Positions 10,650 to 40,586 of a DNA stretch of 64,000 nt are shown piece by piece. Source of the DNA: Cellulomonas sp. ES6 (lineage in GTDB: Bacteria > Actinomycetota > Actinomycetes > Actinomycetales > Cellulomonadaceae); NCBI RefSeq assembly GCF_030053835.1, contig NZ_CP125655.1:124001-188000 (forward strand), in the 5' to 3' direction. Positions within the stretch are counted from its first letter, which is position 1. Each line of letters begins with the position of its first letter. Both the position numbers and the translations under genes were made by a program. Below the pieces are notes generated by a model. The model worked only from the letters and a program-made list of their open reading frames with translations, searched no databases and had not been told where the DNA came from.

Positions 10650-10736
10650 CGAGGTCGTCCTCCAGGCCCGAGGTCGTCACCTCGGGCCGAGGTCGTCAGG
10701 TGGGACGCACGACCTCGGCCGCAGGTGACGACCTCG
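10650..10736. repeat. Nested palindromic repeat element, copy A (also polA terminator)
   Basis: Two 12-mers related to CGAGGTCGTCAC start at 10669 and 10688, and their reverse complements at 10706 and 10725. The element of 68 bp is symmetric about 10702.5, with start spacings 19, 18 and 19. A further shortened forward unit sits at 10650, again 19 bp away. Bases 10685-10696 and 10709-10720 form a perfect 12-bp stem, so it can end transcription between convergent polA and the methyltransferase gene. Copy B at 25823-25890 has exactly the same geometry. Confidence 0.85.
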
Positions 10737-23648: not shown

Positions 23649-24959
23649 GTGACCACGGGTCGGCAGGGTCCGCAGGTCCCCCTGGTGGGGGAGACGCCCG
23701 GGGGGCCGCTCGGCACCCACACGGGCCCGTACTTCGGTGACTTCGGTGGCCGGTTCGTCCCGGAGGCGCTGGTCGCGGCGCTCGACGAGCTCGACACGGA
23801 GTTCCACAAGGCGCTGGCGGACCCGTCGTTCGGCGCGGAGCTCGCCCGGCTGCACCGCACGTACACCGGGCGGCCGAGCCCGCTCACCGAGGTCAGGCGG
23901 TTCGCGGAGCACGTCGCCCCGGGCGTGCGGGTGTTCCTCAAGCGCGAGGACCTCAACCACACCGGCTCGCACAAGATCAACAACGTGCTCGGCCAGGCGC
24001 TGCTCGTGAAGCGCATGGGCAAGACGCGCGTGATCGCGGAGACCGGCGCGGGCCAGCACGGTGTGGCCACGGCCACCGCGGCGGCGCTGCTCGACCTCGA
24101 GTGCGTCGTCTACATGGGCGAGGAGGACACGCAGCGCCAGGCGCTCAACGTCGCCCGGATGCGGCTGCTCGGCGCGACCGTCGTCCCGGTGACCATCGGG
24201 TCGCGCACCCTGAAGGACGCGATCAACGAGGCCCTGCGCGACTGGGTGGCGAACGTCGAGACGACGCACTACCTACTCGGCACCGTGACGGGCCCGCACC
24301 CGTTCCCCGAGATGGTCCGCGACTTCCACAAGATCATCGGCGAGGAGGCGAAGGCCCAGCTCGCCGAGGAGATCGGCCGGCTGCCCGACGCCGTGGCGGC
24401 CTGCGTGGGCGGCGGGTCCAACGCGATGGGCATCTTCAACGCGTTCCTCGACGACCCGTCGGTGCGGCTGTTCGGCTTCGAGGCCGGTGGCGAGGGCATC
24501 GCGTCCGGGCGTCACGCGTCCCGGTTCAGCGGCGGCTCGCCGGGCGTGCTCCAGGGCACCAGGTCGTACCTGCTCCAGGACGACGACGGCCAGACGCTGC
24601 CCAGCCACTCGGTCTCGGCGGGCCTGGACTACCCGAGCGTCGGTCCCGAGCACGCGTGGCTGCACGACATCGGCCGGGCGCAGTACCGGCCCGTCACCGA
24701 CGCCGAGGCGATGGACGCCTTCCAGCTCCTGTGCCGCACCGAGGGCATCATCCCGGCGATCGAGTCGGCGCACGCCCTCGCGGGCGCGATCCAGCTCGGC
24801 CGGGAGGTCGCGGGCTGGGAGACGCCCGACGGCCGCGAGCCCGTCCTGCTGGTGAACCTCTCGGGGCGCGGCGACAAGGACGTGGCGACCGCGGCGGCGT
24901 GGTTCGACCTGCTGGAGGACAAGCCGGTCGTGCAGGCGGACGAGGGAGAGCAGCTGTGA
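23649..24959 (+). CDS. trpB: Tryptophan synthase beta chain
   Basis: This 436-residue PLP enzyme condenses indole with serine. The PLP lysine is Lys109 in [10 protein letters not shown]. The motifs ETGAGQHG and the phosphate-binding GGGSNAMG are intact, as is the [12 protein letters not shown] region. It is a TrpB1-type chain expected to pair with TrpA from the next gene. The start is GTG. The end overlaps trpA by GTGA, so the two subunits are made together. Confidence 0.96.
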
Positions 24960-25774
24960 GCGACGTGGCGACGACCTCGCGGACGGCCGCGACGCTGGAC
25001 CGCGTGAAGGCCGAGGGCCGGGCCGCGCTCGTCGGGTACCTGCCGCTCGGCTTCCCGAGCGTCGCGGGTTCCGTCGCCGCCGCCCGCACGATGGTGGAGG
25101 CCGGCGTCGACGTGGTCGAGCTCGGCCTGCCGTACTCCGACCCCGTGATGGACGGGCCCGTCATCCAGCACGCCGTCGACCACGCGCTGGCCGGCGGCAC
25201 CCGGGTGCGCGACGTCCTCGGTGCCGTCGAGCAGATCGCGGCCACCGGCGCGCCCGTGCTCGTCATGACGTACTGGAACCCGGTGCTGCGCTACGGCGTC
25301 GACGCGCTCGCCCGCGACCTCGCGTCGGCCGGCGGGGCCGGGCTCATCACGCCGGACCTCATCCCCGACGAGGGTCAGGACTGGATCGCCGCCTCGCGCG
25401 AGCACGACCTCGACCGGGTGTTCCTCGTCGCGCCGTCGTCCACGCCCGAGCGCCTGGCGATGACGGCCGCGGCGTCGCGCGGGTTCGTGTACGCGGCGTC
25501 CACGATGGGCGTGACGGGGGAGCGGACCACGGTCGGCGCCCGCGCGGAGCAGCTCGTCGCGGACACCCGCGCGGCGGGCGCGGACCACGTGTGCGTCGGC
25601 CTGGGCGTGTCCCGGCCGGAGCAGGCGCAGGACATCGGGCGGTACGCGGACGGCGTCATCGTCGGCTCGGCGTTCGTCCGGGCGCTGGCCGGCGCCGACG
25701 ACGAGCGCGCGGGGCTCGACGCCCTGGCGGCGGTCGCGTCCGGCCTGGCCGACGGCCTCCGCCGCTCCCGCTGA
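24956..25774 (+). CDS. trpA: Tryptophan synthase alpha chain
   Basis: This 272-residue TIM barrel releases indole from indoleglycerol phosphate and channels it to TrpB. Catalytic Glu and Asp are in [29 protein letters not shown], the loop [11 protein letters not shown] and the phosphate site [12 protein letters not shown] are present. GTG start with GAGGGAGAG upstream inside the trpB end. The frame is open far upstream within trpB, which is a shadow. It is followed by the nested palindrome that probably ends the operon. Confidence 0.95.
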
Positions 25775-25822: not shown

Positions 25823-25890
25823 CGAGGTCGTCACACCCGGCCGAGGTCGTCACGTGCACGTGACGACCTCGGCCCGACGTGACGACCTCG
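25823..25890. repeat. Nested palindromic repeat element, copy B (also trp operon terminator)
   Basis: The 12-mer CGAGGTCGTCAC occurs at 25823 and 25842 and its exact reverse complement at 25860 and 25879. The 68-bp element is symmetric about 25856.5. The central 36 bases (25839-25874) are a perfect palindrome able to form an 18-bp stem. Spacings of 19, 18 and 19 equal those in copy A at 10669-10736, while the spacer bases differ. It lies between trpA and lgt. Confidence 0.9.
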
Positions 25891-25939
25891 CGCGCCCGGG
25901 CGCTGCCGGACGCGCTGCCGACCGCCCAGCGGCGTGGCC

Positions 25940-25951: not shown

Positions 25952-26845
25952 GTGATCCTCAGCCTCGCCACGGCCCTCCCGGCCGCGATCCCGAGCCCGT
26001 CGCAGGGCGTCTGGCACCTCGGCCCGGTGCCGCTGCGCGCCTACGCCCTGGCGATCCTGCTCGGCATCGTCGCGGCCGTCCTGCTGACCCAGCGGCGGTG
26101 GAGGGAGCGTGGCGGCGACCCCGACCAGGTGCTCGAGATCGCGTTCTGGGCGGTCCCGTTCGGCATCGTCGGCGGCCGGCTGTACCACGTGGTCTCCTCG
26201 CCGGACGCGTACTTCGGGGCGGGCGGCGACCCGTGGAAGGCGTTCGCGATCTGGGAGGGCGGCCTCGGCATCTGGGGGGCGATCGCGCTGGGTGCGGTCG
26301 GCGCGTACATCGGCTGCCGCCGGCAGGGCGTGTCGTTCCCGGTGTTCGCGGACGCGCTGGCTCCCGGCCTCCTGGTCGCGCAGGCCATCGGGCGGCTCGG
26401 CAACTGGTTCAACCAGGAGCTGTTCGGCGGCCCGACGACGCTGCCCTGGGGCCTGCGGATCGACGACGCGCACCTGCCCGCCGGCTACGAGCCCGGCACG
26501 CTGTTCCACCCGACGTTCCTGTACGAGCTGCTGTGGAACCTGGCCGGCGCGGCGCTGCTCATCTGGCTCGACCGCCGGTTCCGGCTCGGTCACGGCCGGG
26601 TGTTCTGGCTGTACGTCGTGGTCTACACGACGGGGCGGCTGTGGATCGAGCTGCTGCGCATCGACCCCGCGGAGATGATCGGCCCGTTCCGGCTCAACGT
26701 GTGGACGTCGATCATCGTCGGGCTGGGCGCGCTGGTAGCGTTCGTGGTCGTCGGACGTCGTCATCCTGGACGCGAGACCACACCCGACCTGCGCGGATCC
26801 GGTACGCAGGACGCCGATGTGGAGGAGCACGGCACCGCCCGCTGA
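25952..26845 (+). CDS. lgt: Prolipoprotein diacylglyceryl transferase
   Basis: This 297-residue membrane enzyme transfers diacylglycerol from phosphatidylglycerol to the lipobox cysteine of prolipoproteins, such as the binding protein at 293-1555. Seven hydrophobic segments are visible. Conserved motifs are GRLYHVV, the Lgt signature AIGRLGNWFNQELFGGP (about 148-164) and FHPTFLYELLWNL. The C-terminus ends in a short hydrophilic tail, unlike the long tails of mycobacterial Lgt. The start GTG lacks a ribosome-binding site and follows a -10 box, so it is probably leaderless. The trpA-lgt order is conserved. Confidence 0.93.
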   Translation: MILSLATALPAAIPSPSQGVWHLGPVPLRAYALAILLGIVAAVLLTQRRWRERGGDPDQVLEIAFWAVPFGIVGGRLYHVVSSPDAYFGAGGDPWKAFAIWEGGLGIWGAIALGAVGAYIGCRRQGVSFPVFADALAPGLLVAQAIGRLGNWFNQELFGGPTTLPWGLRIDDAHLPAGYEPGTLFHPTFLYELLWNLAGAALLIWLDRRFRLGHGRVFWLYVVVYTTGRLWIELLRIDPAEMIGPFRLNVWTSIIVGLGALVAFVVVGRRHPGRETTPDLRGSGTQDADVEEHGTAR

Positions 26846-40470: not shown

Positions 40471-40586
40471 TGCGGCCTCCGCGCGACCCGCCCTCCGCGG
40501 TGGCCCACCGGAGGCCGCCGCGGTCGTCGCGCCCGGCCGGGGTCGCGACCGAGCCGGGGGGGCGTGACCTGCACCCGGGGACGACG

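Follow-up and report, generated by a model that had tools for sequence, protein, structure and literature searches.

A candidate REP-like family of dispersed, nested palindromes at gene 3′ ends in Cellulomonas sp. ES6

What is the symmetrical element that lies between trpA and lgt in Cellulomonas sp. ES6, and does it end transcripts, bind a protein or move? The stretch of DNA analysed, here called the window, is 64,000 nucleotides long and corresponds to positions 124001-188000 of the ES6 genome (G000), which is one contig of 4,124,887 bases. Window positions are marked as such below and all other positions are those of the contig.

The element between trpA and lgt

The element, F1 copy B, occupies window positions 25823..25890 (68 bp, no strand assigned) and is built from four 11-bp units separated by gaps of 8/8/8 bp. 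Units 1 and 2 read CGAGGTCGTCA on the plus strand (25823..25833 and 25842..25852), and units 3 and 4 are exact inverted copies on the minus strand (25861..25871 and 25880..25890); the unit starts are 19 bp apart throughout, centre included, and the order is > > < <. Direct reading of the sequence bears out the four exact half-sites and the perfect 36-base centre (25839..25874, no strand) described in the initial annotation, and by eye this centre consists of 14-bp arms and a palindromic 8-bp loop. Overall, the 34-nt arms of copy B are 91% complementary. Copy B begins 48 bp past the stop codon of trpA (24956..25774, plus strand), and lgt (25952..26845, plus strand) starts 61 bp beyond it. Pfam confirmed both neighbours as first named (Trp_syntA, 1.7e-68; LGT, 2.4e-67).

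A single long hairpin can form from either strand of copy B, with fold energies of -71.5 and -76.2 kcal/mol (z = -9.3 and -8.3 versus shuffled sequences). A gapped pattern of two facing half-sites, which is self-complementary and gives equal counts on both strands, matched 13 times in the ES6 genome versus 0 for its reversed control, and a 30-bp two-unit pattern with up to 3 mismatches gave 44+33 matches, the reversed control giving 0. Together, the fold and the counts show that the symmetry of copy B is not due to chance. Rfam assigns no family to window positions 25823-25891, mir-9456 reaching 34.4 bits against a gathering score of 80. The mir-9456 and mir-4854 models both match the hairpin far below their gathering scores; we read this as a match of shape and rejected copy B as a microRNA. 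The box GCCTAGGCT before lgt is kept in ES6, in the near-identical genome G075 and in the sister species G078, and has one change in G051. Since this box is kept, lgt probably has its own promoter behind copy B.

The window contains a second copy, copy A (window positions 10669..10736, no strand), located between polA and a convergent methyltransferase gene, so the proposal that both copies sit at the end of a gene or operon stands. The two had also been called equal to the base in geometry. They do share the 19-bp grid, but unit 3 of copy A is GCACGACCTCG, with two changes, and copy A has a fifth unit, CGAGGTCGTCC, on the same grid at 10650..10660 on the plus strand. A pair of half-sites at window positions 40519 and 40538 had been put forward as a possible decayed relative. 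Each of its units has 7 of the 9 fixed positions, no inverted partners were seen alongside, and the window away from copies A and B holds three more same-strand pairs of this kind (23815, 27640 and 42651). We therefore rejected the pair as a decayed element and attribute it to chance.

Two families in the chromosome and their position relative to genes

The F1 family comprises 31 elements in the 4.12-Mb chromosome (30 in one listing and the array at 1545483), and the 27 F1-flavour inner palindromes listed separately all fall within these 31. Unit mismatches amount to 20 of 1364 bases. Mean pairwise identity is 0.973 in the units, 0.60 and 0.63 in the gaps, 0.51 in the loop and 0.39 in the 8 bases outside. 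After shuffling of gap columns 46 similar F1 pairs are found versus 56 observed, and because this excess is small, recent copying does not account for the 97% unit identity. The genome yielded no unpaired two-unit halves of F1 flavour. Of the 31 copies, 22 are found on a single replication arm (0.4-2.2 Mb) and two are less than 0.5 Mb from dnaA (2.34 Mb), an apparent skew.

A sister family, F2, has units CGAGNTCGGCA and gaps of 8/8/9 bp, and at least 14 copies are present in the chromosome: 10 elements (F2 positions, all outside the window, include 36461, 717673, 825484, 1009155, 1321178 and 2571271) and four later ones, of which those at 933865, 1734339 and 3172448 have four units in the 8/8/9 frame and that at 749305 has three. 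There is an imperfect extra F2 at 3639258. One 8-bp and one 9-bp outer gap are nearly always found in F2 (17+14 of 32 elements).

The grid is closely kept. In the fetched ES6 loci, facing units are spaced by exactly 19 bp in 39 of 59 distances of 11-31 bp; same-direction units are exactly 19 apart in 41 of 60 distances in that range and 20 apart in 7 of 60. Arrays of 5 to 8 units occur at 134650, 403249, 1425543, 1545483 and 4075740, with the extra units mostly on the grid, and in 88 of 124 four-unit cores even a loose threshold revealed no further unit. An unbiased search for other units in identical geometry gave 0 hits (control, 1 each) in 200 kb of each of two motif-free genomes, and 3 hits, one of them an F1 element, with 3 control hits in 248 kb of G078; this is too little sequence to exclude other units.

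The elements lie mostly at the 3′ ends of genes. Genes were called with a custom codon-model script that had been trained on the window, in place of an annotator. Of the 30 F1 elements placed in ES6, 12 lay in convergent gaps, 16 in co-directional gaps and 1 in a divergent gap, and the last was inside a reading frame. Across all loci, 156 elements (41 from ES6 and 27 from G078, the loci of the near-identical genome being omitted save three) fell into 55 convergent, 71 co-directional and 11 divergent positions, with 4 inside genes and 15 at locus edges. The 55 convergent and 11 divergent cases among 137 placed elements compare with 45 and 69 among 260 background gaps (minimum length 80 bp), taken from the named loci that hold elements and including the elements' own gaps. 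The p-values for the convergent excess (1.5e-6) and the divergent lack (6e-6) are optimistic because many elements share ancestry. In co-directional gaps, 59 of 71 copies are closer to the upstream stop than to the downstream start (medians, 52 versus 158 bp). Genome-wide recurrence and 3′ placement thus support the earlier suggestion of a dispersed intergenic repeat at gene ends, and dispersed palindromes in 3′ intergenic space are REP-like in the wide sense.

In ES6, G078 and C. pakistanensis, an ABC-ATPase gene carries an F1 element in frame at its 3′ end and is followed directly by a CbiQ-family gene (L070:4925-5779, ES6 approx. 34.7 kb; L314; L226). Both genes were named from profile matches, and we take the pair to be of the bioM-bioN type. 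Between ES6 and C. pakistanensis the units of this element differ at 3 of 44 positions and its gaps and loop at 15 of 24. A separate reading frame is flanked at 888.9 and 890.0 kb by F1 copies (L077:4490-5720, ES6 888.9-890.1 kb), and a diverged form of it lies between two F2 in the sister species (L313); by eye its product resembles a DUF559/AbiEi-type protein. It was rejected as an element-linked gene since it is not recurrent, and among 275 neighbours no recurrent partner gene was found beyond common paralogues and orthologues.

The same placement bears on the reading of the element as an ordinary bidirectional intrinsic terminator that shares its sequence by happenstance. Copy B is a GC-rich hairpin of -71.5 kcal/mol, and elements sit at gene ends and often occupy much of a convergent gap. 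Intrinsic terminators, however, need neither a fixed 11-bp sequence nor a 2+2 grid. A run of three or more T was present in only 2 of 311 flanks of 15 nt, and the sites 788487 and 1292728 hold, by eye, a separate conserved hairpin as well. A 3′-end role without a U-tract is reasonable because ends of this kind are frequent in Streptomyces clavuligerus, where they account for 353 of the 535 structured transcript ends (in the portion of PMC8269248 available to us). F1 resembles these U-less ends and the I-shaped terminators of GC-rich bacteria in having a GC-rich hairpin at the 3′ end, but differs from them in its conserved unit sequence, its copy number and its fixed internal grid. An ordinary intrinsic terminator is unlikely because one copy lies in frame inside the bioM-bioN-type operon, before its next gene, in three species; the classical form was rejected on this ground and for want of a U-tract, and we regard the happenstance reading as highly improbable.

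Distribution and divergence among genomes

A generalised two-unit pattern with at most 1 mismatch matched in 42 of 81 same-genus genomes, 26 of them with five or more matches; its reversed control gave one match in each of three same-genus genomes. A three-unit pattern was found in 10 of 396 sampled genomes of the order, in 5 of 109 genera. The scan of named genomes yielded 90 stretches in Cellulomonas species, Actinotalea, Promicromonospora, Cellulosimicrobium, Sanguibacter, Cryobacterium and some MAGs. No match was found in the viral contigs, plasmids and phages searched, and a plasmid or phage origin was rejected. Seven contigs of G075 (C89, C158, C223, C259, C265, C328 and C345) begin within approx. 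65 bp of an element, and this suggests that assemblies break at the palindromes and that counts from draft genomes are too low. No description of the repeat turned up in the literature listings examined.

The ninth base of the unit varies by lineage. It is T in ES6, G in five Promicromonospora loci and in two of the three Cellulosimicrobium loci shown, A in 4 of 5 Actinotalea loci and mostly C in the single C. telluris element shown, and it is uniform across all four units in 139 of 156 elements; the CGTC of the F1 unit becomes CGGC, CGAC or CGCC in other flavours. In a genome of another family, G146, there are 13+8 matches, with units CGAGTTCGCCA and TATCGAACTCG-like inverted units, three of them spaced 122 and 141 bp apart. 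This is another flavour, possibly amplified with flanking DNA.

The closest comparison is with G075 (MAG DE14.004, labelled as the same species), which is 97-100% identical to ES6 over matched stretches. All 13 F1 sites with both flanks available in G075 carry the element, and the comparison shows extra 19-bp units at 1276268 and 403249. Of 48 aligned G075 loci, 44 map to the ES6 stretches compared and the remaining four carry F2 at places outside those stretches. In 12 F1 pairs the units differ at 3 of 528 positions, the gaps at 4 of 192 and the loop at 3 of 96.

For the sister species G078, whose flanks are 88-99% (mostly 93-97%) identical, 26 of the 31 F1 sites could be compared: 8 carry F1 (two of these are one array), 2 are decayed, 9 lack it and 7 carry F2 instead. 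Three of the absences (749218, 1012408 and 4075740) keep a neighbouring F2 common to both genomes, and a remnant of the first unit is kept at 149823. The G078 F2 elements lie in the gaps of the ES6 F1 at 479900, 774915, 788487, 993286, 1038782, 1292728 and 2168772; seven such swaps were observed versus about 0.2 by chance, a rough estimate from 26 sites, some 25 F2 and some 2,500 gene ends. As the sequence round the swapped elements aligns poorly, replacement in place and separate gain and loss look alike here.

Seven F1 pairs from ES6 and G078 differ at 6 of 308 unit positions, 14 of 112 gap positions and 4 of 56 loop positions (p = 4e-5; three of ten rows were dropped, one decayed, one F2 and one duplicate). 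More distant species show the same contrast against ES6, in totals that count some loci twice: in C. hominis, units differ at 12 of 220 positions and gaps at 55 of 80, and in C. pakistanensis at 12 of 308 and 65 of 112, the latter becoming 7 of 176 and 35 of 64 once repeats are removed. Two C. hominis loci, L362 (78%) and L377 (85%), map to one ES6 site, so one may be paralogous. These comparisons indicate that the units are under selection while the 8-bp gaps drift. Because the units stay constant as the intervening bases drift, something may recognise them. Insertion of a species' own flavour at favoured sites would equally yield equal units and different gaps between the more distant species. 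Similar element pairs are in excess in C. hominis (132 observed versus 26 expected), less so for the F2 of G078 (18 versus 11) and C. pakistanensis (3 versus 0.4), and some copying between elements is likely in C. hominis.

At the trpA-lgt gap itself, the element is present in 5 of 30 genomes inspected (G000, G075, G014, G069 and G090), and a short gap without it is found in G051 and G016, whose Lgt is 93% and 92% identical. Given its absence from 25 of the 30, including these species, no copy need be important. The initial annotation held that unrelated terminators at this position in relatives, together with a motif that did not recur, would tell against the element; the interval is indeed other sequence or a short gap in most relatives examined, but the motif recurs in the genome. 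The family as a whole is probably old.

Mobility, recognition of the units and a possible role

The repeat had been proposed to be mobile. It is dispersed and intergenic, but signs of mobility are wanting: the RAYT transposase domain (Y1_Tnp, PF01797) was found in 0 of 10 genomes, ES6 included, with a positive control that matched in 5 of 14 known genomes, and neither a clear target duplication nor a recurrent partner gene was found. Equal direct flanks of 122 elements in the 19-19-19 frame number 31 versus 23.5 expected for k = 2, 12 versus 11.4 for k = 3, 2 versus 2.8 for k = 4 and 1 versus 0.6 for k = 5, and those of 33 elements in the 19-19-20 frame 2 versus 0.6 for k = 4. These flanks hold no clear duplication, and a miniature transposon with target duplication was rejected. 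For a MITE, the search for a partner covered unpaired F1 halves in the ES6 genome and recurrent neighbours, with neither found; a partner may lie elsewhere.

A selfish miniature mobile or REP-type repeat could nevertheless be spread by an unrecognised transposase, its 3′ placement marking where insertions are tolerated. The patchy distribution in the genus and the order would fit this, as would the many similar copies in C. hominis and the intergenic 3′ bias known from published REPs (PMC3733652, in the part available). To be set against these are the lack of a Y1 transposase, clear target duplication and unpaired halves, the unchanged F1 positions wherever the 97-100% identical genome was compared, and the far better conservation of units than of gaps within the same 68 bp. 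We consider a purely selfish repeat improbable.

Comparison with known REPs shows both shared and differing features. According to the sections of PMC3733652 at hand, GTAG REPs are short dispersed palindromes that favour convergent and co-directional gaps, lie near the upstream stop and sometimes fall inside genes; this 3′ preference is shared by F1 and F2. REPs, BIMEs and REPINs with a RAYT are, however, GTAG-tagged hairpins of 20-40 bp, whereas F1 and F2 measure 68-69 bp, have four 11-bp units on a 19-bp grid and lack both GTAG and, in the 10 genomes, a Y1 transposase. REPs usually exceed 100 copies (PMC2817692, from an excerpt) and F1 and F2 number tens. Membership of the RAYT/REP (GTAG) group was rejected, since copy B has no RAYT, no GTAG and 68 bp of four units. 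The CGTC REPs, which include Neisseria dRS3, are likewise reported to have no dedicated transposase and to lie near gene 3′ ends (PMC3733652, same sections), and F1 units contain CGTC. Their stem of 8-9 bp opens with AT pairs, their loop measures 4-5 nt and their tail is CCA-like (PMC3733652, likewise), whereas the F1 half element is a direct repeat with a lineage-variable ninth base, and the structure of copy B does not match this group. The working analogy is therefore REP-like, on account of the shared 3′ preference and the transposase-free CGTC group, while tag, stem and length speak against membership. In that large survey, tagged REPs are found chiefly in proteobacteria, and the word Actinobacteria is absent from its main text (PMC3733652).

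Substitutions in the units bear on whether the element acts as a hairpin or as duplex DNA. Among the 123 elements with a 19-19-19 frame, a change at a fixed position is seldom matched across the hairpin (units 1 and 4, 2 same versus 65 single changes; units 2 and 3, 3 versus 41). The arm gaps in ES6 do not covary (155 matches versus 153.1 expected, p = 0.39), with position 8 the sole exception (p = 0.0003), and G-U and A-C mismatches in the transcribed strand are similar in number (20 versus 15, p = 0.5). Substitutions thus give no support to action at the RNA level, and the uncompensated unit changes point to constraint on the unit sequence itself. In the F2 frame (33 elements), the variable fifth base agrees between hairpin partners in 24 (p = 0.01) and 22 (p = 0.0005) cases and shows no clear agreement between non-partner units (p 0.11-0.58); in single genomes the signal is weaker (G078, n = 20, p = 0.08 and 0.045; ES6, n = 10, p = 0.19 and 0.16). 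Pairing has some support, then, in F2 only. The suggested cruciform or hairpin is possible by fold energies, but covariation is confined to one F2 position and absent from the 19-19-19 frame.

These data would also fit a four-site DNA operator, bound as duplex in the order > > < < by a dimer of dimers or a tetramer and working at gene ends as a roadblock, an insulator or an organiser of the nucleoid, with no RNA role. Four spaced sites of one sequence are what a tetrameric regulator would use, and the fixed 19-bp grid, the free gap sequence, the lack of stem compensation in the 19-19-19 frame, the presence of four units in nearly all cores examined and the adherence of extra units to the grid all agree with such a site. 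The geometry and unit conservation behind the dimer-of-dimers proposal thus hold, but no protein is known for it. A symmetric duplex binder would hardly be expected to use the unequal 8/9-bp outer gaps of F2, the hairpin partners of F2 covary at position 5, and the promoter location expected of such an operator is not seen, with divergent gaps depleted and most co-directional copies nearer the upstream stop. We regard the duplex operator as doubtful.

Taken together, we favour, with a probability of about 0.45, a REP-like family of dispersed nested palindromes at gene 3′ ends, whose units may be recognised by a putative sequence-specific factor. Against it, no gene family recurs near the copies and no binding protein was found. 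Such a factor would bind the 11-bp units in duplex DNA or in the long hairpin of either strand, and the bound or folded element could mark or protect transcript 3′ ends, from both sides in convergent gaps and between cistrons in operons. New sites would arise rarely, by copying or conversion between elements, and the unit flavour would change by lineage. More speculatively, and with little probability, the REP-like family may be part of a gene-end marking system in some Micrococcales. In this system, a putative factor would read the four units in the > > < < frame, on duplex or folded strand, and, working from both sides, set or protect transcript ends. As factor and unit co-evolved within each lineage (ninth base T, G, A or C), sister species would come to carry different flavours of element at corresponding gene ends.

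The data describe a rigidly built actinobacterial repeat family, with no REP transposase in the 10 genomes searched, in which the units evolve as if read while the gaps drift. If a factor were found, these bacteria would offer a 3′-end or gene-boundary mechanism to test, and the change of flavour between sister species would be a natural series for the joint change of factor and site.
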